From a virus: DNA of 46,215 nt. The notes beneath the pieces were generated by a model. The model was not told where the DNA came from, made no database searches, and saw only the letters and a program-made list of their open reading frames with translations. Below are positions 6,932 to 38,945 of the stretch, piece after piece. Position numbers and translations under genes: made by a program. Each line of letters begins with the position of its first letter. The stretch's first letter is position 1. The DNA lies in the IMG/VR virus record IMGVR_UViG_3300027754_000160, positions 1 through 46,215 of that record; one strand, written 5' to 3'.

Positions 6932-7106
6932 ATAGTATGGGTTGGTTTTTTATAATTTTTGTGGGGTAGGGGCTTTTGTTTGGAAGGGGGGTGGGTGGGC
7001 GATTTGGTGAAGATTTTGTAGAAATTGGAAAGATGGCTATGGATTAGTGTTGTTGTATGAGCGGTGCTGCTTGGCCCCAAAGGGGTGCTGGGGGTATGGT
7101 GGGGTC

Positions 7107-7144
7107 TGAGATTACTGCATTTCCACGTTCATGAGATTACTGCA
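7107..7144. repeat. Two direct copies of TGAGATTACTGCA, 25 bp apart
   Basis: Exact 13-bp copies lie at 7107-7119 and 7132-7144, with a start-to-start distance of 25 bp. The second copy covers the -35 position of the early promoter. Spacing of about 2.4 helical turns would place two bound proteins on nearly the same DNA face. They are candidate activator or repressor sites. Confidence 0.6.
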
Positions 7145-7164
7145 AAAGCCCTGTATGGTACAAT
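7137..7164 (+). promoter_or_regulatory. Probable early rightward promoter (extended -10)
   Basis: TGG-TACAAT at 7156-7164 matches an extended -10 (TGn plus TATAAT with one mismatch). A -35 is weak (TTACTG at 7137-7142, 16-bp spacing) and lies inside the duplicated 13-mer. A start near 7171 would give a leader carrying the first 23-bp palindrome and then the ribosome site AGGAA of the first early gene. This is the only good plus-strand promoter between the divergent gene blocks. Confidence 0.55.
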
Positions 7165-7193
7165 AGAGGCATCGGTTGGGGCTTCCAGCTGAT

Positions 7194-7216
7194 AGAGGGA
7201 GAACAGTTCTCCCTCT
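7194..7216. repeat. 23-bp palindrome, copy 1 of 7
   Basis: Arms AGAGGGAGAAC and GTTCTCCCTCT around a central A, perfect over 11 bp. It lies in the expected leader of the first early gene. No T-run follows, so it is not an intrinsic terminator. It could act as a DNA operator or as a 10-bp RNA stem with a three-base loop. Confidence 0.9.
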
Positions 7217-7243
7217 GGTTCATCAATGTAATCAGGAATCATC

Positions 7244-7645
7244 ATGTCAATCAAATCTACAGTAATCTCGCAGTTCATCCAGACTAATGCCGTGGCTTAC
7301 GCTGCTGCATCTGATGTGTTCAAGTCAATTGAGGGCAATACCTTTGCGGAGACCCTCGCTGCCTCCGGTGTTATCGGGGCGGATGTAAAAGTCTTTGCAA
7401 CGGTATGGGTGTCACAGACCAACGATGCAGGCGTGATGCCGCATGAGTACCGGGGCACATGGGTATTCACCAAAGACTCAGCAGAACATAGCAGGGTCAA
7501 GTACCTTTGCGCCGTGGTATCTGGTGCAGCAGCACGCAAAGCGGGGGAACGCAAGAGCGCCAAGGTTGACCCCGTGGATGCAGTCCTCAAGGCATACAAG
7601 GCGCTGACTGCTGCCCAGAAAAAGGCTTTCATTGCGGCTATCTAA
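7244..7645 (+). CDS. First early protein, unknown function
   Basis: This 133-aa protein (14 kDa class) begins MSIKSTVISQFIQTNAVAYA. It has an alanine-rich N-terminal helix region, a strand-rich middle (VKVFATVWVSQTND, EYRGTWVFTKDS) and a lysine/alanine-rich C-terminal helix (AVLKAYKALTAAQKKAFIAA). There is no membrane segment and no motif I recognise. It is the first gene after the early promoter and is bracketed by two copies of the 23-bp palindrome (before the start and 13 nt after the stop). First-position early phage genes often encode host take-over factors; that is context only. Confidence 0.8.
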   Translation: MSIKSTVISQFIQTNAVAYAAASDVFKSIEGNTFAETLAASGVIGADVKVFATVWVSQTNDAGVMPHEYRGTWVFTKDSAEHSRVKYLCAVVSGAAARKAGERKSAKVDPVDAVLKAYKALTAAQKKAFIAAI

Positions 7646-7658
7646 GCCGCTATCAATC

Positions 7659-7681
7659 AGAGGGAGAACAGTTCTCCCTCT
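7659..7681. repeat. 23-bp palindrome, copy 2 of 7
   Basis: The same perfect arms as copy 1 with central A. It is preceded by TATCAATC, a flank that partly recurs before copies 3 and 6, so the repeated unit is slightly longer than the palindrome on its left side. It sits between a stop codon and the next ribosome site. Confidence 0.9.
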
Positions 7682-7707
7682 AACCCCCACACTCTAGGAG
7701 ATACATC

Positions 7708-7887
7708 ATGAACTACACCGCCTCAATCCAAAACATCGAAGCTGCCCAAGCACACTACGACAAAGTGTGTGATCTAGCTGAAACAGACAACAACATAGGT
7801 GCTGCGCTGGACATACTTCATCGCGCCAAGGCAGACCACCGCGCATCCTTTGACTCATTGGTGCGCGTAAATGGGACTTGGACATAA
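7708..7887 (+). CDS. 59-aa small protein, unknown
   Basis: The product begins MNYTASIQNIEAAQAHYDKV and ends LVRVNGTWT. It looks like a two-helix hairpin, with a basic, histidine-containing second helix (HRAKADHRASF). A ribosome site TAGGAG precedes the ATG by 9 nt. It has 23-bp palindromes on both sides. No family is recognised; a short helical early protein could bind a host protein, but nothing shows this. Confidence 0.65.
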   Translation: MNYTASIQNIEAAQAHYDKVCDLAETDNNIGAALDILHRAKADHRASFDSLVRVNGTWT

Positions 7888-7899
7888 GCCGCACCAATC

Positions 7900-7922
7900 A
7901 GAGGGAGAACGGTTCTCCCTCT
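7900..7922. repeat. 23-bp palindrome, copy 3 of 7
   Basis: Perfect AGAGGGAGAAC/GTTCTCCCTCT arms with a central G, 12 nt after the stop of the 59-aa gene. The 72 nt to the next start hold only a short GGGCAA-TC-TTGCCC inverted repeat and the ribosome site TAGGAG. Confidence 0.9.
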
Positions 7923-7994
7923 AAGTCAACTCTCACAGCGCATCCGCAAGGGTGTGTTGTGGGGGCAATCTTGCCCTGACTGTAGGAGATATCA

Positions 7995-8135
7995 ATGAAC
8001 GTAGCACTTGGAATCATAGGTACGGCTTGCGTAGCCGTAGCCTTGGGTCAGCTTGTCCCCGAGGGGATGTGGTTGTGGTTGGCAGTCTTGGGATGGGGGT
8101 GTTGCACCCTCACGCTGGCCTTCGTCTGGGACTGA
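7995..8135 (+). CDS. 46-aa small hydrophobic membrane protein
   Basis: The sequence MNVALGIIGTACVAVALGQL, a PEGM turn and then WLWLAVLGWGCCTLTLAFVW predict two membrane-crossing segments separated by a short acidic turn, with almost no charged residues. The ribosome site is TAGGAG, 7 nt before the ATG. It lies between palindrome copies 3 and 4. Two-segment proteins of this size include phage holins and superinfection-exclusion peptides. Its early position argues against a simple holin, and no choice can be made from sequence alone. Confidence 0.6.
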   Translation: MNVALGIIGTACVAVALGQLVPEGMWLWLAVLGWGCCTLTLAFVWD

Positions 8136-8178
8136 ACACTCTATAGCCTTGTGACAGGGGGCTATGTAGTGCGCTGTT

Positions 8179-8201
8179 AGGGGGAGAACTGTTCTCCCCC
8201 T
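8179..8201. repeat. 23-bp palindrome, copy 4 of 7 (G-rich variant)
   Basis: Arms AGGGGGAGAAC and GTTCTCCCCCT around T. Both arms carry the same compensating change (A to G, T to C) relative to copies 1-3, so the symmetry has been preserved while the sequence changed. Confidence 0.9.
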
Positions 8202-8223
8202 GAGTGTCACGTTGGAGAGCATC

Positions 8224-8478
8224 ATGAAATCAGGAACTAAGCATTGGTATCGGGCCAACATCATGGGTGTTGAGTACACAGTCATCCGCAAGCAGCCATT
8301 GCGTAATGACCCGTCGTATTGGATCATCCATGCCGTGAGCACAGACGGCAGAACAACCCTTCACCACGACAACGACGCGTTTTTCAAGTGGGCAGAGAAC
8401 GAGGGCATGGCCCAACGCTCCGAACGCCGCCCTATGGGCGTGATGAGGGCCGCACTTTTGGATGCTGGTTTGCAGTAA
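8224..8478 (+). CDS. 84-aa small protein, unknown
   Basis: The product begins MKSGTKHWYRANIMGVEYTV. It has a strand-rich first half (EYTVIRKQPL, YWIIHAVSTDG) and an acidic/basic helical end (DAFFKWAENEGMAQRSERRP). The ATG is preceded by GGAGAG at 7 nt; an in-frame TTG four codons upstream overlaps that ribosome site and is less likely. The fold looks like a small alpha/beta domain. No motif is known to me. Confidence 0.7.
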   Translation: MKSGTKHWYRANIMGVEYTVIRKQPLRNDPSYWIIHAVSTDGRTTLHHDNDAFFKWAENEGMAQRSERRPMGVMRAALLDAGLQ

Positions 8479-8492
8479 TCTCGCCAGAGGGG

Positions 8493-8833
8493 GGTGGCCC
8501 ACCTTTTTCCTGCAATGTCCAAGACTAATGGGCGCGGTACAGGAAGTGGGCTACCCCTAAGTTGTTGTTCTATAAGCGTTTCCAGCAGGTGGTGTCCTAT
8601 ATATATAATTAAATAGATTTACTTTATATATACAGCAATCTCCTTTTATCCATTCGTTCTTTCTTTTGCGTTTGGTTTAAGATAAGATTACAAGGTCGAT
8701 GGTTTATTTATATTTGAGTGTATACTTGGGACAGGAACCACGCGAACCCTTGTGCCACAAGGGTTTGAAGGTAGCCCACCTCCTGACATGAGACCTTTAG
8801 TCTGGGACATCGTTAGACATTTACTGGGCCACC
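8493..8833. other. Noncoding locus: imperfect 63/64-bp inverted repeat around an AT-rich core
   Basis: This fills most of the 407-nt gap between genes. The left arm (8493-8555) and the reverse complement of the right arm (8770-8833) share GGTGGCCCA at one end, ATGTCC and AGACTAA in the middle and CAGGA-GTGGGCTACC at the other end; I count 32 matches in the last 42 aligned positions. The spacer contains a 35-bp stretch (8598-8632) with only two G/C bases (TATATATAATTAAATAG and so on), very unlike the surroundings, and a 21-bp palindrome next to the right arm. No convincing reading frame was found. It is a candidate replication origin, divergent control element or remnant mobile element. Confidence 0.65.
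8745..8765. repeat. 21-bp perfect palindrome AACCCTTGTG-C-CACAAGGGTT
   Basis: Ten-bp arms with a one-base centre, unrelated in sequence to the 23-bp family but of the same design. It lies inside the AT-rich-core locus, 4 bp from the right arm of the large inverted repeat. It could be a protein-binding site or a cruciform or hairpin at an origin. Confidence 0.75.
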
Positions 8834-8848
8834 CCCCACCCAAAAAGC

Positions 8849-8871
8849 AGCGGGAGAACGGTTCTCCCCCT
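8849..8871. repeat. 23-bp palindrome, copy 5 of 7 (one mismatch)
   Basis: Arms AGCGGGAGAAC and GTTCTCCCCCT with central G and one unpaired position. It lies 14 nt before the ATG at 8886 and abuts the ribosome site AAAAAGGAG, so an RNA stem here could influence translation. Confidence 0.85.
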
Positions 8872-8885
8872 AAAAAGGAGCTGAA

Positions 8886-9692
8886 ATGGTTGAATCTTAC
8901 GCAGCGCTAACGCCAAAAGCGTTAGCAAACCACCTTGCCAAGCGCAAGGTTCCGCTTGTTATGGTGCAAGCCATACAAGAGCGTGCTGCCCAACAGCGTG
9001 CGTTCAAGCGCTCCAATGAGGGAACCAAGAGGACTCACAAGGAACTGTGGGGCAATCTGCTGTTCCCGTTGCGTTATGAGCGCAACAATGTGAAGGCTGG
9101 CCTTAAGTATGCCGGTGGCGAAGCAAGGGGTGAGGCAATGCACAGTTATCTCATTGTGCTGGAGGAACTGCTCCATCGGCTGAACTATCACGCCACAACC
9201 CGTATCCTGACCCCACGCCAACTGTGCAAGGAACGCAATGAGTCGGGCCGAGGCGCACACATACCCAATGCAGGAACCCATTGGTCTGATTGGGTTCCGC
9301 AGCACATCAAACTGAGGGTATGCGTCCTGTTCGACGCCATACCCTATAAACAGCGTGCGAAACGCAAGCTACCTTTCCAGCGCGCCATACCCCCGCTGCT
9401 CTACAGCAGGCTGTACGTAGCCCTTGGCTTGCGGACACAGGGGTTCCTGAGTGCAGCACAGCGCAAGCATGCCGTTGCGCCCACAGAGGAGACAGCAGCT
9501 ACTGTTGCAGCCATACAACACGCGCTGGCGGTCTTACAAGAGTGGCCCCGCAACACAGCCCTGCCCTACGCATGGCAGAGCCTTGCGGCGGCAACGACCA
9601 GTATCAAACAGAGGGAGAACGGTTCTCCCTCTGCTGAAAGCGGACGACCGCTGAACAACGGGGGGGAAACCCCCCATAACCTAGGAGAGTGA
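8886..9692 (+). CDS. 268-aa basic protein, unknown; C-terminus runs through palindrome 6
   Basis: The product begins MVESYAALTPKALANHLAKR. It is rich in R, K, A and H with long amphipathic helices (VQAIQERAAQQRAFKRSNEG, SYLIVLEELLHRLNYHATTR) and no membrane segment. The basic, helical character suggests nucleic-acid binding, but no known motif is visible. The strong ribosome site AAGGAG precedes the ATG. The last 37 residues (from IKQRENGSPSAE) are encoded by palindrome copy 6 and the leader of the next gene, and the stop TGA ends one base before the next ATG. In the other copies the palindrome lies after a stop codon, so this tail is probably an extension caused by stop loss. Function unknown. 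Confidence 0.75.
   Translation: MVESYAALTPKALANHLAKRKVPLVMVQAIQERAAQQRAFKRSNEGTKRTHKELWGNLLFPLRYERNNVKAGLKYAGGEARGEAMHSYLIVLEELLHRLNYHATTRILTPRQLCKERNESGRGAHIPNAGTHWSDWVPQHIKLRVCVLFDAIPYKQRAKRKLPFQRAIPPLLYSRLYVALGLRTQGFLSAAQRKHAVAPTEETAATVAAIQHALAVLQEWPRNTALPYAWQSLAAATTSIKQRENGSPSAESGRPLNNGGETPHNLGE
9610..9632. repeat. 23-bp palindrome, copy 6 of 7, inside a coding frame
   Basis: Perfect AGAGGGAGAAC/GTTCTCCCTCT with central G, preceded by TATCAAAC as in copy 2 (TATCAATC). Unlike the other copies it lies before the stop codon of the upstream gene and is translated as QRENGSPS. Confidence 0.9.
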
Positions 9693-9693
9693 C

Positions 9694-10038
9694 ATGGGAC
9701 TAGACATTCAGATATTGAGCGTGCCTCGGGCAGTGGCTGTGAAAGCCACAGATGCGCGGCTTGGCTCACGCTACGACACGCACCCCCGATGGCAGCAAGT
9801 TGCCTACGAGCGCAACAACTGGGACTTGCACGCCTTGCTTGCTGCACTCTATGCCGAGCGAGGTGGGACGCAGGACGAGTTCAACGACACAACGGTGCGC
9901 TTGTACAAGCGCGACCTACGCCTGTTCCTTCAGACTTTTGAAGGAACATTGGCTCCTGCCATTAGCCCATCCACGGCAGAGCAAATTATCGAACACATGA
10001 GAAAAGGGCGAGTTGTGTACGCCGAATCTTGTTTTTAA
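9694..10038 (+). CDS. 114-aa protein beginning MGLDIQ, unknown
   Basis: The N-terminus MGLDIQILSVPRAVAVKATD and the C-terminal RKGRVVYAESCF recall a loose group of phage and bacterial proteins that start MGLDM/MGLDI and end near a V-Y-x-x-S strand; the resemblance is from memory and tentative. The middle is an acidic helical region (DLHALLAALYAERGGTQDEF). The ribosome site CTAGGAGAG overlaps the end of the previous gene, so translation is probably coupled. Soluble, no membrane segment. Confidence 0.75.
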   Translation: MGLDIQILSVPRAVAVKATDARLGSRYDTHPRWQQVAYERNNWDLHALLAALYAERGGTQDEFNDTTVRLYKRDLRLFLQTFEGTLAPAISPSTAEQIIEHMRKGRVVYAESCF

Positions 10039-10050
10039 AAGGAGAGTGAG

Positions 10051-10233
10051 ATGAAGACAGTATCAATTGGCAGATTCAAAGAAGACGGGACGTTCACAGT
10101 GGTGTGCACCCTGACCAACAACGGGGGGCACATGCCCCCTGCTGCGTTCGAAGCCCTTGTGGAGAACACAGCGCTAGCCTTGGCTGTGCATCTGGGGCGA
10201 GAGAGAACCGTAATCAAGGAGCAAGGAAAATGA
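10051..10233 (+). CDS. 60-aa small protein, unknown
   Basis: A beta-hairpin-like start (MKTVSIGRFKEDGTFTVVCT) is followed by an alanine-rich helix (AAFEALVENTALALAVHLG) and a basic tail. The ribosome site AAAAGGAGAG is 7 nt upstream. The stop overlaps the next start as ATGA. It is the first of four tightly coupled small genes leading to the NinX homologue. Confidence 0.7.
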   Translation: MKTVSIGRFKEDGTFTVVCTLTNNGGHMPPAAFEALVENTALALAVHLGRERTVIKEQGK

Positions 10234-10415
10234 AACCAAAAAACGTAAACGAAGCGCTGGACAGCGTGCATGCACGGCTGATCGCAGCAGGGGCTTATCT
10301 GGAGCGCTACTTGCTCAATCCGCAAGACTACTCGCCAGAGCATATCGAGGAAGTTAAAGACGCTGTGCTTGACGCACACATGCTGGTGACTTGGATTAAG
10401 GACAATATTAAATGA
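10230..10415 (+). CDS. 61-aa helical small protein, unknown
   Basis: The product begins MKPKNVNEALDSVHARLIAA, probably two or three helices (AGAYLERYLLNP, PEHIEEVKDAVLDAHMLVTW). Start and stop both overlap neighbours through ATGA. The ribosome site AAGGA lies in the end of the previous gene. No recognised family. Confidence 0.7.
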   Translation: MKPKNVNEALDSVHARLIAAGAYLERYLLNPQDYSPEHIEEVKDAVLDAHMLVTWIKDNIK

Positions 10416-10588
10416 AAACAAAACGCTGGACATACAAGGTGTACTACGCTGGCCGGTTCGTGGCTGCGTTCACATCACGCAAGAAAGCCAGAGAGTTCAT
10501 GGAGGGCATGACCGACTTCGATCTGCCCTTCCTCATCACGCCTGATATCGCTGGGCAGATACCAACCATGATAGGAGAACTGAAATGA
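10412..10588 (+). CDS. 58-aa basic small protein, unknown
   Basis: MKTKRWTYKVYYAGRFVAAF forms two strands, followed by TSRKKAREFMEG, a basic helix, and an aliphatic tail with ITPDIAGQIP. A strand-strand-helix peptide with an R/K patch could contact nucleic acid. It is coupled by ATGA overlaps on both sides; the end carries the ribosome site (AGGAG) of the next gene. Confidence 0.65.
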   Translation: MKTKRWTYKVYYAGRFVAAFTSRKKAREFMEGMTDFDLPFLITPDIAGQIPTMIGELK

Positions 10589-11267: not shown

Positions 11268-12878
11268 ATGAAAATCTATCTTAGTGATTGTGGAACTGTG
11301 CTCAAGGCACAGATCGTGGACGCCAGCACGCTGGTGCAGGTCACGGGCACGCTGGACGGGCGCTACAGTGAGATCAGGCACTACATGCCAGAGCCTGCGT
11401 TCTCCACCCCGGCGTTCACACCAGCGCAGGTGGGCATACTGAAGGCACGCAGCGGGGATGTCTACGGGCGGATGCTCAACAACATGGTGAACGAACTCAG
11501 CGCACCCGCAGCACGGCGTATGCGTTCGCTCTCCCGCCGTTGGGCAGACAGGGACGACTACCGCTCCCCCACAGCGCACTGTCGTGGGGGCCGCTACCAA
11601 CTGAACAACATGGGTGTCTATCGGTTCAAGGCACTGAAGGAGATGTGTCGTGAACTCGACGCGCATGTCAAAGCGGCCATCCAAGGTGATGAGGATGCGC
11701 TAGTCGAGTTCATCGTGGAGAACGAAGGGGACGACCTGATCGACCGGGTGTTCCACAAGATAAGCCATCTCGTTGCCGACCGCTTGGTCTTGGCAGACTG
11801 TGGGCACATCACCCGGCCCGATGACATGACAGATGTGCACCGCACCTCAAGGAACTCCAGCACCATGTGCATTGACTGCCGCAGCAATCAGGCGGTGTAC
11901 TGCGAGGACGCAGAGGAGTACTACTTTGAGGATCGTGCCTACCGCCACAGTGATGACAATTGGTACACCTACGAAGAAGAGCGGGATGAGGAGGAAGAAG
12001 AGGAAGATCCTGACAACGGGCGCTCTATGAGCTACTCTACATGCGTCTTGAAGCACACCGCTGCCGATGAGAGCATCCACAGTTCCAAGTATGGGGACTT
12101 CACGCTGGGCATTGAGTTGGAGATGGCCCCGGGGCGTGCGTCTAGGTACGATGCCATTGAGGATGTGCGGAACCAGCTTGGGCATGACTACTGCATCATT
12201 AAGGACGATGGCAGCATCAGCGGGGTCAATGGCTTTGAGGTAGTGACTGCCCCCCGTGGTCTGAAGGAGCACATCACACGCTTCAAAGCATGGGATGTCA
12301 ACAAAGCCTATCGTGCTTGGGATGTGGAGAAGTGCGGCACGCATGTGCACATCGACTCCCGTGCCTTCACTGAGTTGACCCTTGGCAAGTTCCTCATATT
12401 CATCAACTCCAACAACAACGCCGACTTCATCCGCAATATAGCAGGCAGGCATCCGCTCAAGGACAGCCAAGCACGGGAGTACTGTGCCAATGAAGAGCAG
12501 GGCATCTTGGAGAACCCCAAGCAGGCCATCCTTGGCAAGACGGCACAGCGCTACTACATGGTGAACCTGAACAACTTGGCGTATGCCGAGTCCCAGCGCT
12601 TGGGGTTCAAGAGTACGTACACAGATGGCAAGTACAACACGATAGAGCTACGCATCTTCCGGGCCACACTCAAGAAGGAGCGCTTGCTTGCACAGATAGA
12701 GTTCACCCATGCCAGTGTGCACTTCTGTCGCAGTGCGAGTTTCCGCGAACTCAACGGTACAGAGTTCGTGGCATGGCTCAAGACGACCAACAACGCATAC
12801 CCGCACCTGTCCGATTGGTACGGCACACGCCGCCCCAAGCAGGTTCCCCAGTCCCCCGCACTCGCAACAACTGAATAA
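11268..12878 (+). CDS. Predicted amidoligase (Amidoligase_2-type COOH-NH2 ligase) with zinc-ribbon-like insert
   Basis: This 536-aa protein is a predicted ATP-dependent ligase of the glutamine-synthetase/GCS-like fold that would form an amide or isopeptide bond. Catalytic-domain motifs, in order, are GIELEM (281-286), DDGSISG with GFEVVTAP (313-329), CGTHVHIDS (356-364), YYMVNL (429-434) and IELRIFRATL (459-468). These match the family's metal-binding Glu/His residues and its C-terminal R-x-x pattern. The N-terminal 270 residues are not part of the usual core: an unrecognised helical part, then cysteines C178, C201, C204 and C212 (a probable zinc-binding cluster), then an extreme acidic run (EEERDEEEEEEDPDNG, 236-251). 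The ribosome site is AAGGAAAC. The class II amidotransferase gene follows by 11 nt, and such pairings are described for this superfamily. The substrate is unknown. Confidence 0.85.
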   Translation: MKIYLSDCGTVLKAQIVDASTLVQVTGTLDGRYSEIRHYMPEPAFSTPAFTPAQVGILKARSGDVYGRMLNNMVNELSAPAARRMRSLSRRWADRDDYRSPTAHCRGGRYQLNNMGVYRFKALKEMCRELDAHVKAAIQGDEDALVEFIVENEGDDLIDRVFHKISHLVADRLVLADCGHITRPDDMTDVHRTSRNSSTMCIDCRSNQAVYCEDAEEYYFEDRAYRHSDDNWYTYEEERDEEEEEEDPDNGRSMSYSTCVLKHTAADESIHSSKYGDFTLGIELEMAPGRASRYDAIEDVRNQLGHDYCIIKDDGSISGVNGFEVVTAPRGLKEHITRFKAWDVNKAYRAWDVEKCGTHVHIDSRAFTELTLGKFLIFINSNNNADFIRNIAGRHPLKDSQAREYCANEEQGILENPKQAILGKTAQRYYMVNLNNLAYAESQRLGFKSTYTDGKYNTIELRIFRATLKKERLLAQIEFTHASVHFCRSASFRELNGTEFVAWLKTTNNAYPHLSDWYGTRRPKQVPQSPALATTE

Positions 12879-12889
12879 GGATATCAATC

Positions 12890-13924
12890 ATGTGTCTCAT
12901 CATTACTGGCAAGTCTGCCAAGATTCGCAACACCCTGCTCAACACAGCCGGGTTACTCGACACCATCTACACATCCAACCCTGACGGGATTGGGCTGATG
13001 TACAGCACCGCCAAGGGACTCAAGACCGTCAAGGTGTTGCCCAAGTCAGCGGCGGATGCACGCGCCATCATCAACAAGATACCCAAGGACGCCCGTGAGA
13101 TGGCAATCCACTTCCGCTGGGCGACACATGGCAAGACAGACTTGCATAACTGTCACCCGTACGATGTCATACCGGGCTACGTTGCCATGATGCACAACGG
13201 CGTGCTGCACACAGGCAATGAGGCTGACAAGGACAAGTCAGACACATGGCACTTCATCAAGGACTACCTGTCGGAGTCGGTGCACATGGCCCCGGAACTG
13301 GTGTTCGTTGATGGGTTCCTTGCCATGATCGCTGAGTTCATTGGGGACAATCGGTTTGTGTTTATGAATGGCGAGGGGCGCATCAGCCATGTCAACAAGG
13401 ACTCAGGCATTGAGCACGATGGCATGTGGTTCAGCAACACCTACGCATGGAACCCCGCGCTGCTGATACCCACGTACCGATCACGCCATACATCCCCACG
13501 CTACCTCGGGTCATGGAACGTGACAGACACAGACGAGGAAGACTACGGGTACTACAGCCGCAGCTTCCACGCACCCAAGCCCATAGCGCCATCGAAGCCG
13601 CTTGTCACTGTGGATGAGATCACCGCGCACCTTGAGTCATGCGATGCGCCGGGTCTGTGTCACTTGCTAGAGGCGTTCCCCAGCACGGCCATACACCTGC
13701 TGTGCAAGAACTTCATCCCAAGCCCCACCTCGGATGCGTATCGGGACGAGATCAGCGCACACGAGACGGCGGTGTACGACATGCTGCTGGAGCAGGACAT
13801 GACGGGGCTGCTGACCTACATAGCACACTCTGCGTCCTCCGCTGCCACAGTGGCGGATGTGATCTGTTACTACCTCAACTGGGAGCGATGCGTGAGCACC
13901 CAGCCCAGCGTAACAGCCGTTTGA
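12890..13924 (+). CDS. Class II glutamine amidotransferase-domain protein
   Basis: This 344-aa protein has an N-terminal nucleophile hydrolase (GATase II) domain, predicted to release ammonia from glutamine. Cys2 follows the initiator Met (MCLIITGK) and would become Cys1 after Met removal. RWATHG at 76-81 corresponds to the RWATHG loop of E. coli GlmS (R73-H77), and MHNGVLHTGN (101-110) carries the Asn-Gly oxyanion pair. D118 in KSDTWHF fits the substrate amine-binding Asp (D123 in GlmS). The domain occupies about residues 1-205. The remaining 140 residues (an acidic DTDEEDYG linker, then a helical region with several Cys) have no recognised fold and replace the synthase domain seen in GlmS or PurF. 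It lies 11 nt after the amidoligase, so the two probably act together. No leader peptide or membrane segment is present. Confidence 0.88.
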   Translation: MCLIITGKSAKIRNTLLNTAGLLDTIYTSNPDGIGLMYSTAKGLKTVKVLPKSAADARAIINKIPKDAREMAIHFRWATHGKTDLHNCHPYDVIPGYVAMMHNGVLHTGNEADKDKSDTWHFIKDYLSESVHMAPELVFVDGFLAMIAEFIGDNRFVFMNGEGRISHVNKDSGIEHDGMWFSNTYAWNPALLIPTYRSRHTSPRYLGSWNVTDTDEEDYGYYSRSFHAPKPIAPSKPLVTVDEITAHLESCDAPGLCHLLEAFPSTAIHLLCKNFIPSPTSDAYRDEISAHETAVYDMLLEQDMTGLLTYIAHSASSAATVADVICYYLNWERCVSTQPSVTAV

Positions 13925-14022: not shown

Positions 14023-14045
14023 AGGTGGAGAACGGTTCTCCCCCT
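14023..14045. repeat. 23-bp palindrome, copy 7 of 7 (one mismatch)
   Basis: Arms AGGTGGAGAAC and GTTCTCCCCCT around G, one mispaired position. It is 4 kb from the other copies, immediately downstream of a good promoter and 18 nt before the start of the winged-helix gene. Confidence 0.85.
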
Positions 14046-16109: not shown

Positions 16110-16399
16110 ACAATGAAGAAGACGAATTCAAACGCATCGAAGCAGAGGCCCAGCGCCAAGCAGCGTTCCAGCGCAAAGTGGACGATGCTATAAGGATTGC
16201 GTTCGAAGCAAAGTGGGACGATGACGACACGCAGGGGTACGCAAGTGAGTTCGCCCTGCCACAACTGAGAACCTTCTTGGACAGTCTCAAGGAACGCATC
16301 GTTAAGCGTTACGTAGGTAGCCCATCAGACAGGGACATAGGCTACGGCATGGAGATTGTGTATTTTGATCTGATCGACTTAATTGAGGGGAAGAAATGA
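16106..16399 (+). CDS. 97-aa acidic protein, unknown
   Basis: The product begins MNNEEDEFKRIEAEAQRQAA. A charged helix is followed by DAIRIAFEAKWDDDDTQGYA and a second helical part (LRTFLDSLKERIVKRY), ending with YFDLIDLIEGKK. Likely a soluble, helical, acidic protein. The ATG overlaps the previous stop; an in-frame TTG four codons upstream is disfavoured. It is coupled to the next gene by ATGA. Confidence 0.75.
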   Translation: MNNEEDEFKRIEAEAQRQAAFQRKVDDAIRIAFEAKWDDDDTQGYASEFALPQLRTFLDSLKERIVKRYVGSPSDRDIGYGMEIVYFDLIDLIEGKK

Positions 16400-25160: not shown

Positions 25161-26741
25161 ATGGAAATCATAGAAAACAAGGCGCTGCTACTACGAACTC
25201 GTGACCCCGGTAAATACGGCATCATCCCCAAGAGTCGTGTTGTTGAGCAGCACGCAGATGGGTCGGCATCGGTAGCAGTTTACTGGGGGTTGGAAGAAGC
25301 AAAGGTGCTTAGAAACTTAGGCGTCAAAGATGTACCCTCGCCCATAACCAAGCGCTATCACTGGCCCGGACGTTACATACCGATGGCGCACCAGATTGAG
25401 ACAGCGGGGTTCCTGACCATGAACCGCAAGGCGTTTTGTTTCAGTGAGCCGGGTACGGGCAAGACCTTGAGTGCGCTGTGGGCCGCAGACTACTTGATGT
25501 CACAGGGCGTGGTGCGAAGGTGTCTGATACTGTGCCCCCTGTCCATCATGCACAGCGCGTGGTTGTCGGATATGACCAGCAGCATCATCCATCGTTCTGC
25601 CATCGTCGCCCACCATGCTCAAGCTAGTCGGCGCATTGAGATGGTGCAGCAGAACTACGAGTTCGTCATTACCAACTACGATGGGCTGAACCTGATTGCG
25701 GACGAAGTGCGTAACGATGGGCGGTTCGATTTGGTGATCGCGGATGAGGCCAACGCCTACAAGATGCCCACCACCAAAAGGTGGAAGTCGTTGCAGAAAG
25801 TTGTCACACCGGACACGTACCTGTGGATGATGACGGGCACACCTGCTGCACAGTCTCCCGTAGATGCATACGGGCTTGCCAAGTTCGTTAACCCCAACGG
25901 CGTGCCGAAGTTCTACACAGCGTGGCGGGATCAGGTGATGAACAAAGTCACGATGTTCAAGTGGGCTCCCAAACCCAGTGCGCCTGAGACTGTGTTTGCT
26001 GCCTTGCAGCCTGCAATACGTTTCACCAAAGCACAGTGCCTTGACCTACCACCTGTCATCACAATGGTGCGCGAAGTGCCGCTGACCCCACAGCAAAACA
26101 AGTACTACGTGATGCTCAAAGAGCAGATGCTGGTGCAAGCCGCAGGGGAGACCATCACGGCTGTGAACGCTGCTGCGGGTGTGAGCAAGCTGTTGCAGAT
26201 CAGTTGCGGGGCTGCGTATACAGACACAAAGGAAGTGGTGGAGTTCGACTCCTCCCCGCGCCTTGCTGTGCTGGAGGAAATACTAGGAGAGACACAGCGC
26301 AAGGTCATCATCTTTGCCTTGTTTCGTAGCACCATCTCAGCGATACACGCGCACCTGTTGAAGCACCACATAGCAACTGAAATGATCCACGGCGACATAC
26401 CGCCCATCAAACGGGGCGACATCATCAGGCGCTTTCAAAACGAGCCTGAACCAAGGGTGTTGGTGATGCAGCCAGCGGCTTCCGCACACGGCATCACACT
26501 GACCGCTGCCGACACGGTGGTGTTCTACGGCCCCCTGATGTCTGTGGAGCAGTACACCCAGTGCATTGCCCGAGCCGACCGCAAGGGGCAGGACTCAGAC
26601 AAAGTTACGGTGGTGCACATTCAGGGATCGCCCATAGAAAGACGCATGTTTAAAGCCCTTGGAGAAAAAGTGAGTGACCACTCCCTACTAACCAAGCTGT
26701 TCGACATTGAAATTAAAACAGGAAAGGGGTTGCAAATGTAA
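25161..26741 (+). CDS. SNF2-type superfamily 2 DNA helicase
   Basis: In this 526-aa protein, domain 1 shows the Q-like AHQIETAGFL (76-85), Walker A SEPGTGKTLSALWA (95-108), motif Ia LILCPLSIMHSAW (122-134) and the DEAx box VIADEANAYK (192-201). The SNF2-like motif III MTGTPAAQSPVDAYGL follows. Domain 2 has a KVIIFALFRSTISAI-type motif IV and ends in motif VI QCIARADRKGQDSDKV. It would use ATP to translocate on double-stranded DNA, for replication, recombination or fork remodelling. About 70 N-terminal residues are extra. The ribosome site CGGAGAAGC is 4 nt from the ATG. A 50-nt spacer separates it from the next gene. Confidence 0.93.
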   Translation: MEIIENKALLLRTRDPGKYGIIPKSRVVEQHADGSASVAVYWGLEEAKVLRNLGVKDVPSPITKRYHWPGRYIPMAHQIETAGFLTMNRKAFCFSEPGTGKTLSALWAADYLMSQGVVRRCLILCPLSIMHSAWLSDMTSSIIHRSAIVAHHAQASRRIEMVQQNYEFVITNYDGLNLIADEVRNDGRFDLVIADEANAYKMPTTKRWKSLQKVVTPDTYLWMMTGTPAAQSPVDAYGLAKFVNPNGVPKFYTAWRDQVMNKVTMFKWAPKPSAPETVFAALQPAIRFTKAQCLDLPPVITMVREVPLTPQQNKYYVMLKEQMLVQAAGETITAVNAAAGVSKLLQISCGAAYTDTKEVVEFDSSPRLAVLEEILGETQRKVIIFALFRSTISAIHAHLLKHHIATEMIHGDIPPIKRGDIIRRFQNEPEPRVLVMQPAASAHGITLTAADTVVFYGPLMSVEQYTQCIARADRKGQDSDKVTVVHIQGSPIERRMFKALGEKVSDHSLLTKLFDIEIKTGKGLQM

Positions 26742-26791
26742 AAAAAACTACTACACTGTCCAACCCTTGACAAAACTACATGGAGAAGCAA

Positions 26792-27202
26792 ATGGAAACA
26801 GAAGTGATTGAGGTGCTGCCGCTTGATCGGCTTGCCAAAATCTACCGTAAGATGCGTTCCGCAATGGAGGTCTTGACGAAAGAGTACGACACTCAAATTG
26901 AGACCATCAAGGAACAGCAGGAGGGCGTGAAGAACGCCATGAAAGACCAGATGAAGGCGCTGGGCGTCACATCTGTGAAAACAGCAGAGGGCACGGTCAT
27001 ACTCTCCGTGAAGACCCGCTACAACACGCAGGATTGGGACTCGTTCAAACGATTCATCATCGAGAACGAAGCCGTTGACTTGCTGGAGAAGCGGATCGCA
27101 CAGAGCAACATGGCGCAATTCTTGACAGAAAACCCCGGACTCGTACCTCCGGGACTCAACTCATCGTCTGAGTATGACGTAAGCGTACGCAAACCAACTT
27201 AA
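26792..27202 (+). CDS. Gp157-like coiled-coil protein
   Basis: In this 136-aa protein, after METEVIEVLPLDR, a long coiled coil (IYRKMRSAMEVLTKEYDTQI and ETIKEQQEGVKNAMKDQMKA) leads to a strand pair, VTSVKTAEGTVILSVKTRYN, and a small domain ending NPGLVPPGLNSSSEYDVSVR. This layout (coiled coil, 'ALGv-svKT--gt--v' strand, then a short domain) resembles Siphovirus Gp157-type and other phage recombination-associated proteins. The match is architectural, not residue-exact. It directly precedes the ssDNA-binding protein. I chose the second ATG (26792) because GGAGA sits 6 nt before it. Confidence 0.65.
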   Translation: METEVIEVLPLDRLAKIYRKMRSAMEVLTKEYDTQIETIKEQQEGVKNAMKDQMKALGVTSVKTAEGTVILSVKTRYNTQDWDSFKRFIIENEAVDLLEKRIAQSNMAQFLTENPGLVPPGLNSSSEYDVSVRKPT

Positions 27203-31677: not shown

Positions 31678-31831
31678 ACGGGGGCAGGGGTTTTTCATCC
31701 CCTGCCTTGATATTGAGGCGGTAAGGGAGGAGGGGTTAAAGAAAGCGCTCTCCCTCCGCATGCTGGATGCCCGTGGTGTTACGGGCATCCGCAATGGGTT
31801 TACGGGCGTGTGGTTTTATCGACGTTCTTAG
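31637..31831 (+). CDS. 64-aa basic protein, last plus-strand gene
   Basis: M(M)PLVIRYPWRLIERGQGFFI, then a helix (EAVREEGLKKALSLRM) and the end TGIRNGFTGVWFYRRS. The strong ribosome site AGGGGAGG is inside the end of the primase-helicase gene, 5-8 nt from two consecutive ATGs. The last 32 nt overlap the end of the giant minus-strand gene tail to tail. Function unknown; the G-VWFYR ending is typical of small single-domain phage proteins that follow replication genes. Confidence 0.7.
   Translation: MMPLVIRYPWRLIERGQGFFIPCLDIEAVREEGLKKALSLRMLDARGVTGIRNGFTGVWFYRRS
31765..31790. terminator. Strong hairpin at the convergence of early and late genes
   Basis: GGATGCCCGT, loop GGTGTT, ACGGGCATCC: a perfect 10-bp stem within the last plus-strand gene, 10 nt beyond the end of the minus-strand gene. 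No T-run on either side, so intrinsic termination is doubtful. Its position between converging units suggests a role in bidirectional 3'-end formation or in limiting antisense read-through. Confidence 0.45.
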
Positions 31832-34800
31832 CTGCGTCTGTTGCTTGGCGCACCGTCTCCGCAAGGCGAATCTTTAGCTGGCGCATCTCGGCCAGCTTGG
31901 CCTGCTTCTCATCGCCGGTCAGGTTCGATGCCCGGATGGCGTTCTCGTACTTGGTGATCTGCTGCATGTTCGATGTGAAGTAGTCCGCCACACCAGCCTG
32001 CGCAAACTCTTCGCTACGCTGGCTTACCAATTCCTTGGCTTCCGCAACACGCCCCTCAGACAGCATGCGGTCTACGGTGGTCTTGACTTTCTTGACATCG
32101 TTCATGCGCTCATACACAGCGTTGATGATGCCGCCAGCATCGTTGGGCTGGAACGAACTGCCGATCACCGGCATATCCGACAGGCGCTTCGTGGTCTTCT
32201 CTGGCGACTCCCCGGTAGGCACACCCATACTGAGCACCTGCATGAGTGCCAGACCCATCGTGCCGGTGTAGCCGCTTACCAGCGCCTCAATCTTGATTGG
32301 GGACAGCCCGAGCCCGGAGCCCATCATCTTGCTGATCTCGCTGCTGCTCTCGCGGAACTGCTGTTCAGGAAGCACCGCCTGCTCACGCCTAGAAAGAATG
32401 TCTTGCCGGGTGTAGAACGACTTGCCAAGTGCCGCTTCAATCCCGGGCTTGAGCGCTTGTGGGATAGGCGGTGTGATTGGTATGTTGACGCCTTTGTACT
32501 GCACAGTCGCCATACTCGTCCCGCCCGGAAGCGTCTGCAAAATGATAGCGTTGAGCGCCTTGAACGCCTCTTCTGCTCCGTTCTCATTTGCCAGCGAGTT
32601 GTATATTGCTTCGGGCAACGCCTTGAACAAGTAGCCCACCTCAAATGGAATTGGGGCCTTGATGGGCTCGTCAATACCGGGAATGCGTATAAACCAGTTC
32701 CCGTACTTCTGCTCTGGCGTGGCGTTCTTGTAAGCCTCGTCATCCTGCATCATGGCAGCGTACGCCAAGGACGCACCAAACATAAGCGCACCGTTAGTGA
32801 TCAACTTCTCCTGAATCTTCAGCCGTTTGTCGAATGGCAGCTTGCCTGTCAGCGCCTTGTACAGCACGTTCAAACCCTGAATCTGCGAGTTGAAGAACGG
32901 AATCAGCGCATTTGCCATGTGAATGCTGGGGGATGCACCACGCTTGTTAAAGTTCATTGACTCCAAGGACATCAACGTGGCCTCCATCTCCGACAGCCCT
33001 TGCTTGATGTAGCTGTTGTACTGTGCGCGGCGGGTGGCAGCATCAGCCTCCATGTTGAGCGCTTCGGCCTTGGATATGAGTTGCCCCAAGTTGCCTTTGC
33101 CTGACATCATGTCGTTCAGTATCTTGGTCATGGCCTCGCTGCTGCTGCCACCGGCAAAGATTTGCCCCCCTGTAATGCCACGTTTCTCCAGCGTTGATTT
33201 GGCAGCAGAAGGCTTGCCGAATATGTTAATTTCTTTCAATGCACCAAGCACGGGAACAAAATCCGCACCAGACAAAAGCGAAGCGGCCAATGAGTCTCGG
33301 AACAACTGGCGTGCCGCATACGTGGGGCTCAGCGTGACCGCCCTGCGCAGCAACGTAGCGGGGAACCCCAACGCCCGGACAAGCACATTGAATTGTGTTG
33401 GAATGCCCTGCATGCCTTTGACCAAAAGATCAGCAGGAACGCCAGCCTTGTCGGTGTCCACGATGGCGTGGTAGTCATCCCCATCTATTTTGAACCGAAC
33501 AACTTTTGGGTCTGCCGTACCCGGCCCTCGCCGAATCTGCGCTAACCCCATGTCCTCAAGCTCGTTCATGGAGTTCTTAGTCGCCAGATTGCGCAGGCCC
33601 ATGTCCGTAATCAAGGCCGTGTTCTGCACCGAGCTTGTCAGGAAATCCAGAATCGGACGGTCACCGCCAACCAACTCGTGCAAATAGGGCTGCTCAGCAA
33701 TGCTACCAACCCGGATGGGGGTCTCACCGCCGATGGTAAGCAGCGCTACGCCGTTCTGTTCCCGGTAGAAGGGGATGTAGTCGTTCTCTTTGGTTAGCCG
33801 CGCTGCGTGTGCTTTTGATATAGCCCCCGACTGTTCAAGAAAACCGACCATGTTGCGGTTGTATTCGTTGTACACATCACGGGCTTGCTTGAAATTCTCT
33901 TCCAGCCCGGGCGTAGCGCGGATGTTTGCCATAGCGCTGTCAAGCTGCGCCTCTGTCAATGCATCACCAAAGTGCAGTGTTTGGAACCCCTTGTTCTTGG
34001 CACGGATGCCAGCCAGATACATTGTGAACAAGCGGTTGGCTGCGTCTGGACTGCCAGCGGGAGCCTTCTTCAGGATGTCCACAACCTGCTGGATATTGGC
34101 TCCGTCAACGCTCTCAACAACGTACTCGGTGCGCCCGTCTTTGCGTTGTTTGGCAACCCGCTGAATCGCCCCATTGGCAACAGACTGCGCGGTGAAGTTC
34201 ATCCGCTGGTCGTACATCCGCAGGTAGTACATCATCTGCGAACCCTTGAGCGCTTCCATTCCCTTGGACACCCGCTCCAGTGGCGCAAACCGATCTACAA
34301 ACTGCGTTTCCGCACCCAGCCAACCACCCGATGCTGCGCGAACCCTGTCAATGACACCGCGCTCCTTGGCAATGAATGTGTCGCCGATGACTCCTGCGGC
34401 AGCAAGTCCCGGGTTGGCATACTTTACGTCTTTGGGGGACAGCAAGGAGCCGACTGACCTGAGTTTTGTTTTCTCTACCGAAGGTGCGTTCTCTGCTTTT
34501 GCTGCTATGAAATTCTCAGCCAAGTCCAAGAAACGGTCTAGCATGGGGCCTTTGGCGGGTGTGTTAACACCTATCAAACGCAGTAGCCCATCTTTAAACC
34601 GTTGCCACAGACTGCGGCCCTCCCACTGCTTGCCGCGCATGTACGTTTGCACCGCCCGACTTGCCAAACCCTCGGCTACAAACTCGTGGATGTCGCCGTC
34701 TTTTATAACCTTGTTGTCAAAATCTTTATCGGCCAAAACGCTGTCGCGCATGCGGTTCAACTCATCTTTGGCTTTGCGTTGATTTGGAGTAAGTTTGTCG

Positions 34801-37800
34801 TCCGCCTTGTCCAACTCAAACATGGTGGCTGCGTGCGCTGCCTCATGCACCACGGTCTCTTCAGACAGGCCGGTGTTCTCGTTGATGCGAACCCGGTTGC
34901 CATCTCTAGACGTACTCCCGGGAGCGTCAGGGCTGTCTTGCGCCGTCACTTCCACCAGCTTGACGTTGACACCATTGACTTCAACAACGGCGGCTAATTT
35001 ACCCGCTATGCGGCGTGCAACATGGTTGCTGCTTTTCTCTGAGATGTTGGTAAGTACCGCTGCCAGCTTATTGCCGCCCAGCAGATCTACATTCTTTGCA
35101 GACAGCGGCGTGTCATTCGGCCCGGAAGTACCGCGCATCTTTCCTTCAAATTCACCGCCGTATATCTCACCCTCAGATTTCTGACTAATTGTCCCGGTCT
35201 TGGGTGCAGCCTGCGCGGCATCGGTTTTGGCTGCAGATAATTCGGCTGTGATACGCGTCTGCTCCACATTCAGACTATCAACAAGCGTTTGTTTTCGAGT
35301 TCTGGGGTCTAACCTTCCAACTGCAGCAACACGCTCTTTGATATTTGTTAGCTTAGCGCTCAAATCCTCAACTTTCTTTTGAGCAATTTCAAAAAGCTGC
35401 TGTTCTTGTGCACGTGCGTCAAATGCTTCTTTTTTTTGTTGCTGTAACTTATTAGAAGATTCCATCTCAGCTTTGCTGATCTGTACATCCCGTTGTTTGA
35501 CCCCGCGCGTTTCAGTTAACCGCATATCCGGTCTTGTATACGTGCGCTTCTCAGTTTCTTTAACGCCACCTTCTTCGCCTGAGTAAAACACTGTGGCGGG
35601 GAAAACCTCTTTACGTGCCACGGCCCCCAACGCCCGACCTTTGGTTTTATTTAGCTCAACTTGTTGCTCTTCAGAAACCGCCTGCCCGTAAGTCTCGCGG
35701 AATAACGTATCAAGCGTTTGCGACCGCTGCTCGGGTGTTTCAACGGCTTCAATCTCTACGCCGCGCAAGCGTGCAAGCTGTTCGTCGCGTTTGTTGAGTT
35801 GGTCTTGTGCTTTGCGGAAACGGGTTTGCAACCCCTTGCGCTTGGCGTCCGTAAGCCCCGGGGCTTCCAATTTCTTTTTCAAGTCTTGAGTTTTTTGAGA
35901 CTCTTCACCGCGAAGGCGGTACGCTGTTGCGTAGCTTGCATCCTTGTTCTCCGCCCTCTTACGAAGTTTTACAAGGTACGTGGTAAGCTGCGTCCGTGCA
36001 ACATCCCGCTCTTCCTGTGACAGGTTAGCATCATTGATTGCGTCTTCAAACGCCTGCCGCTTAAGCGGAGCTTCGTCAATAGCAGCCAGCATAGCGCGGC
36101 GGCGCTCAAAAGAAATTTGTTTTCCAGGCAACGCACTTAGGTCGCCGGTCAGCTTGCGTTCTTTACTGGATTCTTTTTGTTTCTCAGCGCGGGTTTCGGC
36201 CACAGTGGGTTTCTGCTCGCTAAACAAGTCCTCGTACATACCTCGCGTCTCTTCGCGTCGAACCTCTTGCTCGCGCTCCGCCGGGAACATGTCCTCTTGT
36301 GCTGCTGGAGCCGCCTTTTCAGCAACGCCAAAATACTTCCGCAAATCCTGAGTTGCATCTCCAATACCCTGCCCAACATCTGACGACAGCCACCGAGCTA
36401 CGGTCATCCGCGCTGCTGGATCGGCCATGATGGCGGCTTGGTTTTCTCCGACAAGCCGTAGCAGTCCTCGCTCATTTCGAGAAAGTTCTGCGGTGTTATC
36501 AAGCGCAGCTTTTTCTGGCGCTTTAAATTTTCTATAAGAAGCTTGCGTTCTTTCTGCTAGTGGTGCTGCATACACATCACGAGTTGCAGTTGCTGAACTT
36601 TTTGGCTTACTGACTTTTGCCAGCATGCCTTGCAACTCACGGGGGGAAACTTCTTGCTGTGCTTGGCGTTCGATCTGAGCAAGTTGCTGCTGCAGGTTAC
36701 GCGCTTCTGTCTCAGCGGGTAGGCCCTGTCTCAGGCTGTCAAGAAAGTCAACAATCCGCACCCTCGTATCGCCTGCGCCACGCGCAGCTTCTGGCACGGC
36801 AGGGACGGTTTCCAAGCCGGGGATTCGCCCCGTTGTAGGCGCTTTGTATTGAAGCAGCGCTGGCAGATTCTGTTGCAGTTTGTCCAGTAACTTGGCGTTG
36901 GTGTCCGACAGATTTGGCAACGCCTGTGCACGTTCAATGTCTTGCTGCAGTGCTCGGGGAGATGTCCGCTCTGCCGGTTGTTTTTCTATCGTTTCACTTT
37001 CCTTCGTACCCGCTGCGCCCTCCCAAACAGGACGAACGCTGGCTGCACGCCCTTGGTCTTGCAGGTAGCGCATCCGAGCAATAATTTCTAGCGCATCCCC
37101 CTTACGCCCCTCTTGTCGCGCTACAGTAAGATTTTTGCTAAGCTGCGTCAGTTCTGTCCGAATTTCTTGCGTTAGCTCTTGCGTCTGCACTGCACGTGTT
37201 CGGTTAAGCTGCGCTGCACCGGGGATCATGTACTGGCTTCCCACCGGGATTTCTTTGGGCTTTTGCGTTGTGGCAAATGCCTGCTCAAGCGTTTTGGGTT
37301 CCGTTGGTTCGACCGTGGTATCTTCAACTACCGGAGCTTCAACTACCGGAGCTTCAACTACCGGAGCTTTAACTACCGGAGCTTTAACTACCGGAGCTTC
37401 TGCAACGGCTTTCTTGGCACGTGGCTTTTTGACCGGCTCAACTTCGGTCTCGGCAACCTCTGGGGGAACTGCGGGAACTGGGGGAGTAACCTCATCCACT
37501 GGCGCAGACACCGTGCCTTCAACAGTTTGGGCTTTAGGTAGGGGCGCAGTCGTTGCCTCGGGCATTGGCGTAGTGGTGACCACAGGCTCAGCAACCGCAG
37601 GCTGAACCGCCATAGGTTCAACAGGCGCAACGGTAGGCTCAGCAGCCGCAACGGCAGGCGCAACGGCAGCGGGGGGACGGAAGTCAACCCCGGGGTGTAG
37701 CTGGCGTACACGGCGAATCTCGTTCACCAGCGGCTGCATGGTTTCTTTGGCGTACGCATCCCGGGCTACACGCGCATCCTTGGCGTCTGCTACGGACAGC

Positions 37801-38936: not shown

Positions 38937-38945
38937 AAACTGCAC

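Follow-up and report, generated by a model that had tools for sequence, protein, structure and literature searches.

In the herpesvirus origin HSV OriS, an AT-rich spacer lies between inversely oriented protein boxes that are bound by UL9, and an extra inverted box allows one side to fold as a hairpin (PMC12543377). Initiator sites beside an AT-rich unwinding element have also been described for the RepA origin of the phage satellite PLE (PMC7145576) and in a review (PMC5043065). Our analysis of an uncultured tailed phage revealed an element of about 350 bases, gene-free and present as a single copy in its record, in which two long inverted arms flank an AT-rich core. The element shared with HSV OriS the inverted boxes around an AT spacer and the hairpin between outer and inner boxes; the likeness is an analogy of layout, not homology. 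Unlike HSV OriS, it belongs to a bacteriophage, has two boxes on each side, and has arms of 60-130 bp that are lineage-specific. UL9 is a helicase, whereas the protein linked to the element, a putative binder, contained no recognised helicase domain. With the iteron origins of phage satellites and plasmids, the element shared initiator-type sites (putative here) beside an AT-rich element, but those origins contain direct-repeat iterons and use known initiator folds, whereas the present one has long dyad arms and an unrecognised protein. Origins of bacteria, plasmids and satellites are, by analogy, built from the same general ingredients (PMC5043065, PMC7145576). Literature searches turned up no account of this element.

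The window, which is the whole stretch of DNA that was analysed, is a 46,215-bp fragment of the phage genome. The late genes, including those for terminase and portal, lay on the minus strand at both window ends, and the plus strand from 7244 to 31677 carried the early and replication genes, including those for a sigma factor, DNA polymerase A, an exonuclease, a helicase and a primase-helicase. Hundreds of IMG/VR contigs matched the polymerase, with identities of 70-100% among the top 80, while the polymerases of cultured phages reached only about 31% identity or less. Positions 7000-10500 gave no blastn match against cultured phages, and a tRNA search found none. Two further observations concern the coding regions. 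An amidoligase-like protein (11268-12878) adjoined a weak match to the glutamine-fructose-6-phosphate aminotransferase family (12890-13924); together these two early-region proteins may form a peptide-ligase or amide-forming pair. A late protein of 2381 aa (31800-38945) carried an LPD38 domain near its C-terminus, its only other match being a PHROG of unknown function.

A preliminary description of this DNA had reported an imperfect inverted repeat with arms of 63/64 bp in a gap without genes. The repeat was recovered with slightly longer arms (Table 1), and its local alignment scored 43, whereas the 407-bp gap after dinucleotide shuffling reached no more than 28 in 1000 trials (mean 16.7, sd 2.3). 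When the gap was searched by blastn against its own record, the arms matched each other in inverted orientation (72% identity, E 8e-4), and the end sequences GGGGGGTGGCCCA/TGGGCCACCCCCC were perfectly complementary (8489-8501 and 8825-8837). No convincing gene was present in the gap (8479-8885). Each arm was also a hairpin in itself, a feature that had been missed, because its outer and inner ends carried inverted copies of TGGGC[CT]ACC; folded as RNA, the left arm reached -40 kcal/mol and the right arm -18 kcal/mol. Among the five copies of TGGGC[CT]ACC in the 46-kb window, four were the four arm ends, in alternating orientation, and the sole copy outside the element was at 16316.

Table 1. 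Positions of the parts of the element and of the linked gene in the window (a dot in the strand column means that no strand is assigned)
Feature	Position	Strand	Basis
Left arm of the inverted repeat, also a hairpin	8489-8555	.	Alignment, blastn, folding
Outer left TGGGCCACC box	8493-8501	-	TGGGC[CT]ACC motif search
Inner left TGGGCTACC box	8547-8555	+	TGGGC[CT]ACC motif search
AT-rich core carrying a pair of TATATATA boxes at 8598-8632; candidate DNA unwinding element	8595-8634	.	Stability, uniqueness, conservation
Pyrimidine-rich tract right of the core, (nearly) invariant in close relatives	8640-8680	+	Putative role
Palindrome of 21 bp, AACCCTTGTGCCACAAGGGTT, next to the inner end of the right arm	8745-8765	.	
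Right arm of the inverted repeat, weaker hairpin	8770-8837	.	Alignment, blastn, folding
Inner right TGGGCTACC box	8770-8778	-	TGGGC[CT]ACC motif search
Outer right TGGGCCACC box	8825-8833	+	TGGGC[CT]ACC motif search
Gene for a helical protein of 268 aa, basic (pI 10.2); candidate origin binder	8886-9692	+	Linkage, model

The interior of the element also agreed with what had been described, since both the 35-bp block with two G/C bases and the 21-bp palindrome were present. The proposed DNA-unwinding calculation, carried out by the nearest-neighbour method, identified the core as the least stable DNA of the 46-kb window, and it was the stretch of lowest stability at both 40 bp and 100 bp in the window and in every homologous locus tested. 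All six occurrences of ATATATA in the window fell inside the element. The paired pattern TATATATA-N-TATATATA occurred in the window's record at the core only, and it marked a single place in 7 of the 10 records tested, this one included.

Palindromes of another kind were dispersed over the early region. Seven near-identical copies with the core GGGAGAACNGTTCTCCC, up to 25 bp perfect and mostly intergenic, were located at 7194-7216, 7659-7681, 7900-7922, 8179-8201, 8852-8868, 9609-9633 and 14026-14042 (0.2 expected by chance). The copy beside the element (8852-8868) was cleanly absent in the relative L089, in which the element was kept. Other lineages had other palindromes in similar places, for example two copies each of GGGGAGATATCTCCCC in L122 and of GTGGGACACNGTGTCCCAC in L123.

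Alignment of the gap in related phages, a check suggested in the preliminary description, found this arrangement again in a conserved syntenic position, just to the right of the terminase genes on the minus strand. In close relatives the arms, core and pyrimidine tract were kept (five non-identical contigs and one identical), with a block identity of 93% in the two best-matched ones. In distant relatives (about 73% polymerase identity) the place and plan were kept and the arm sequence was not; in G005/G006, G008, G010, G012 and G013, a TATATATA-type core lay between inverted arms of 32-101 bp whose outer sequence was largely unrelated to that of the window. For a systematic test, the gene on the right side of the element was used to collect 80 loci, and the upstream DNA could be read in 79. 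Of these 79, 78 had an AT core 216-267 bp upstream of that gene, and in 67/78 loci and 23/28 sequence clusters the inverted repeat scored above every one of about 50 randomly chosen sites; these are counts of contigs, not of independent evolutionary events, because the loci were gathered by conserved sequence. The arms were weak in several lineages whose linked protein has a zinc finger (the null maximum was exceeded by 7 of the 11 distinct elements), and G009, with the linked gene about 3.4 kb away, had almost no arms.

The outer arms fell into about 11 unrelated sequence families and yet matched within each element: own left and right arms aligned at a median of 40 versus 18 when swapped, and none of 5000 permutations reached the observed sum. 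Among elements 78-88% identical, both partners had changed in 197 pairs versus 92 in a shifted control, and 124 of the 197 doubly changed pairs were still complementary; most single changes in the arms were uncompensated. Selection for dyad symmetry or pairing, or homogenisation by template switching, would each fit this matching of the arms. Similarity between arms was more closely correlated with the linked protein (partial rank correlation 0.49) than with TerS (0.20), a comparison confounded by linkage because the gene of the linked protein is nearer to the element.

A 20-mer, AACCCGCATGRAYACTRGCG, was found in the arms of many relatives, and the element of the window had a degenerate version at best. 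AACCCGCATGRAYACTRGCG was rejected as a phage-specific motif since single intergenic copies were present in bacteria too. It occurred in Burkholderiales, Acidobacteria and others at 52 places, versus about 4 expected from length alone (L311-L362, bacterial genomes; further places were L214, L231, L233, L238, L243, L246, L254, L264, L271, L283 and L284). Outside the phage group there was usually one copy per genome, apparently intergenic, and some copies lay beside tRNA genes or an integrase.

The linkage of element and gene was tested independently on loci found by AACCCGCATGRAYACTRGCG alone and not by the gene. A homologue of the protein lay directly to the right of the element in all 64 testable loci; the other 5 of the 69 in-group loci were cut by a contig end within 530 bp, and 11 unrelated contigs with AACCCGCATGRAYACTRGCG had no homologue. 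In many of these loci the homologue was of a sister subfamily with an N-terminal CxxC-CxxC finger, which resembles the finger of endonuclease VII/HNH proteins (weak match, phrog_1035, E 9e-5). Independence of the element from the linked gene (22/64 loci) was considered and rejected, the remaining loci carrying this diverged zinc-finger homologue. Profile comparison united the two subfamilies (probability 97, E 4e-11), and the structures predicted for both contained a very long helix followed by a second helix. The linked protein matched no Pfam or PHROG family, and tblastn against cultured phages gave no hit. Comparison with the PDB by Foldseek and VIA-align returned generic helical bundles only for the protein of the window (best E 0.59, Z 7), as did PDB comparison for the zinc-finger subfamily (best E 0.58); the lack of a clear match in these predicted models does not show a new fold.

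An analogous site was found in cultured phages. In the Pseudomonas phages KPP25 and CRPAP1904 (Kochitakasuvirus), as in the window, the corresponding gap, where the rightward genes begin, contained an AT core flanked by the two arms of a long inverted repeat (26419-26664 of NC_024123 in KPP25). Unlike the window, these phages had two copies and a different core sequence, and origin function is putative there too. The second copy of the dyad was about 31.9 kb away in KPP25 and about 30.4 kb away in CRPAP1904. In the 39 kb of KPP25 examined, the two cores were the two least stable sites, and 13 of 14 GTTACGA fell in the two sites; in CRPAP1904, too, nearly every GTTACGA repeat belonged to the analogous sites. 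The elements extended over about 26395-26826 and 58258-58543 in NC_024123 (KPP25) and about 1942-2293 and 32368-32652 in L132 (CRPAP1904); these paired AT-core elements, roughly half a genome apart, are candidate double origins. Neither phage had a homologue of the linked protein, and the CRPAP1904 paper made no mention of such a site (PMC13340246).

The preliminary description had offered a replication origin, a divergent control locus or the remnant of a mobile element, and of these the origin was best supported, by the stability minimum, single copy, conserved core, inverted sites, linked gene of a basic protein and KPP25 analogue. The replication proteins encoded by the phage itself were also counted in its favour. 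The weak arms of several zinc-finger lineages and of G009, the lack of a recognised initiator or ATPase domain in the linked protein and the lack of its homologue in KPP25 were counted against it. GC skew, another suggested check, was uninformative as origin evidence, the minimum of the window (6679) following gene direction; KPP25 had no skew minimum at its site. A core suited to unwinding, repeated sites in opposite orientations and a basic protein always encoded beside them make up the anatomy of an origin and its binder, and we consider it probable, judging from sequence, that the element is the replication origin of the phage, with the adjacent protein as its likely binder. The TATATATA core would act as the DNA unwinding element and the inverted arms as paired, oppositely oriented binding regions for an origin-binding protein; in this lineage each arm would offer two TGGGC[CT]ACC boxes able to extrude as a hairpin. 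The most likely binder is the basic product of the adjoining gene on the right. By attaching to both arms it would bend the core and melt it, and the melted core would permit loading of the phage primase-helicase and the family-A DNA polymerase, with replication starting at the element.

The main rival is an autoregulated transcription hub, in which the arms would serve as operators, the promoter region of the linked gene would be the AT block, and the basic product of that gene would bind the arms and control its own and other early genes. In many relatives the right arm extended as far as the ribosome-binding region of the gene, a site and a gene that always stay together are likewise a usual feature of self-regulation, and the closer agreement of the arms with the protein than with TerS would fit too, linkage being a confounder. 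However, promoter-like matches in 7000-10000 were not above shuffles (2 versus 1.8), matched arms of 60-130 bp flanking a 40-bp melting core far exceed the needs of an operator, and KPP25 has two analogous copies without the linked protein. We regard such a hub as rather unlikely. The control locus as previously described was not "divergent", because the genes on either side both point rightward and the gene directions actually diverge about 1.4 kb farther left, at 7080/7244.

Co-variation of the arms and the strong RNA folding of the left arm could also point to a structured RNA or attenuator, a transcribed dyad whose long stem would regulate the downstream gene or act as a phage RNA. This seems improbable: there were 0 Rfam matches, single changes were mostly uncompensated, and a TATATATA core has no obvious RNA role as a loop. 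Nor did the arm mismatches prefer G-U on the plus strand (58 versus 118 of the opposite kind, a skew due to the C-rich composition of the strand). A packaging (cos/pac), genome-end or recombination site, to which the small terminase gene 1.1-2.1 kb from the element might point, is likewise improbable, because contigs did not end there and no protelomerase was found. Only 1 of 78 cores lay within 300 bp of a locus edge, genome-sized contigs broke at scattered places, and the search of the record, itself a fragment, for a protelomerase (PF16684) gave none. For a hairpin telomere (telRL), moreover, the core is asymmetric and not a perfect palindrome. A small mobile element that has decayed and left its terminal inverted repeats, suggested by shape only (two arms around a gene-free spacer), is excluded with near certainty by synteny, the same place and architecture being present in 78/79 relatives with no second copy, and neither an empty site among relatives nor a flanking target duplication was seen, the spacer was strongly conserved, and the arm families differed by lineage yet matched within each element.

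If the element is an origin, a broader and distinctly more tentative proposal is that it represents an origin-initiator module not described before, belonging to an abundant clade of uncultured phages, in which small basic ATPase-less proteins of a new family would recognise paired, lineage-specific inverted arms and open the TATATATA core, with arms and protein co-evolving; it would be a phage counterpart of herpesvirus OriS. The arms would perhaps be recognised as extruded hairpins rather than as a fixed sequence. To our knowledge, the origins of tailed phages are mostly unmapped beyond a few models. A cis element and a linked protein family shared by many uncultured phages would provide a searchable origin signature, and the family would be a new candidate class of origin-binding proteins. 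KPP25 is a cultured phage in which the analogous site may be tested directly, and the roughly 11 arm families offer a natural data set on how the two halves of a site stay matched while their sequence is replaced.
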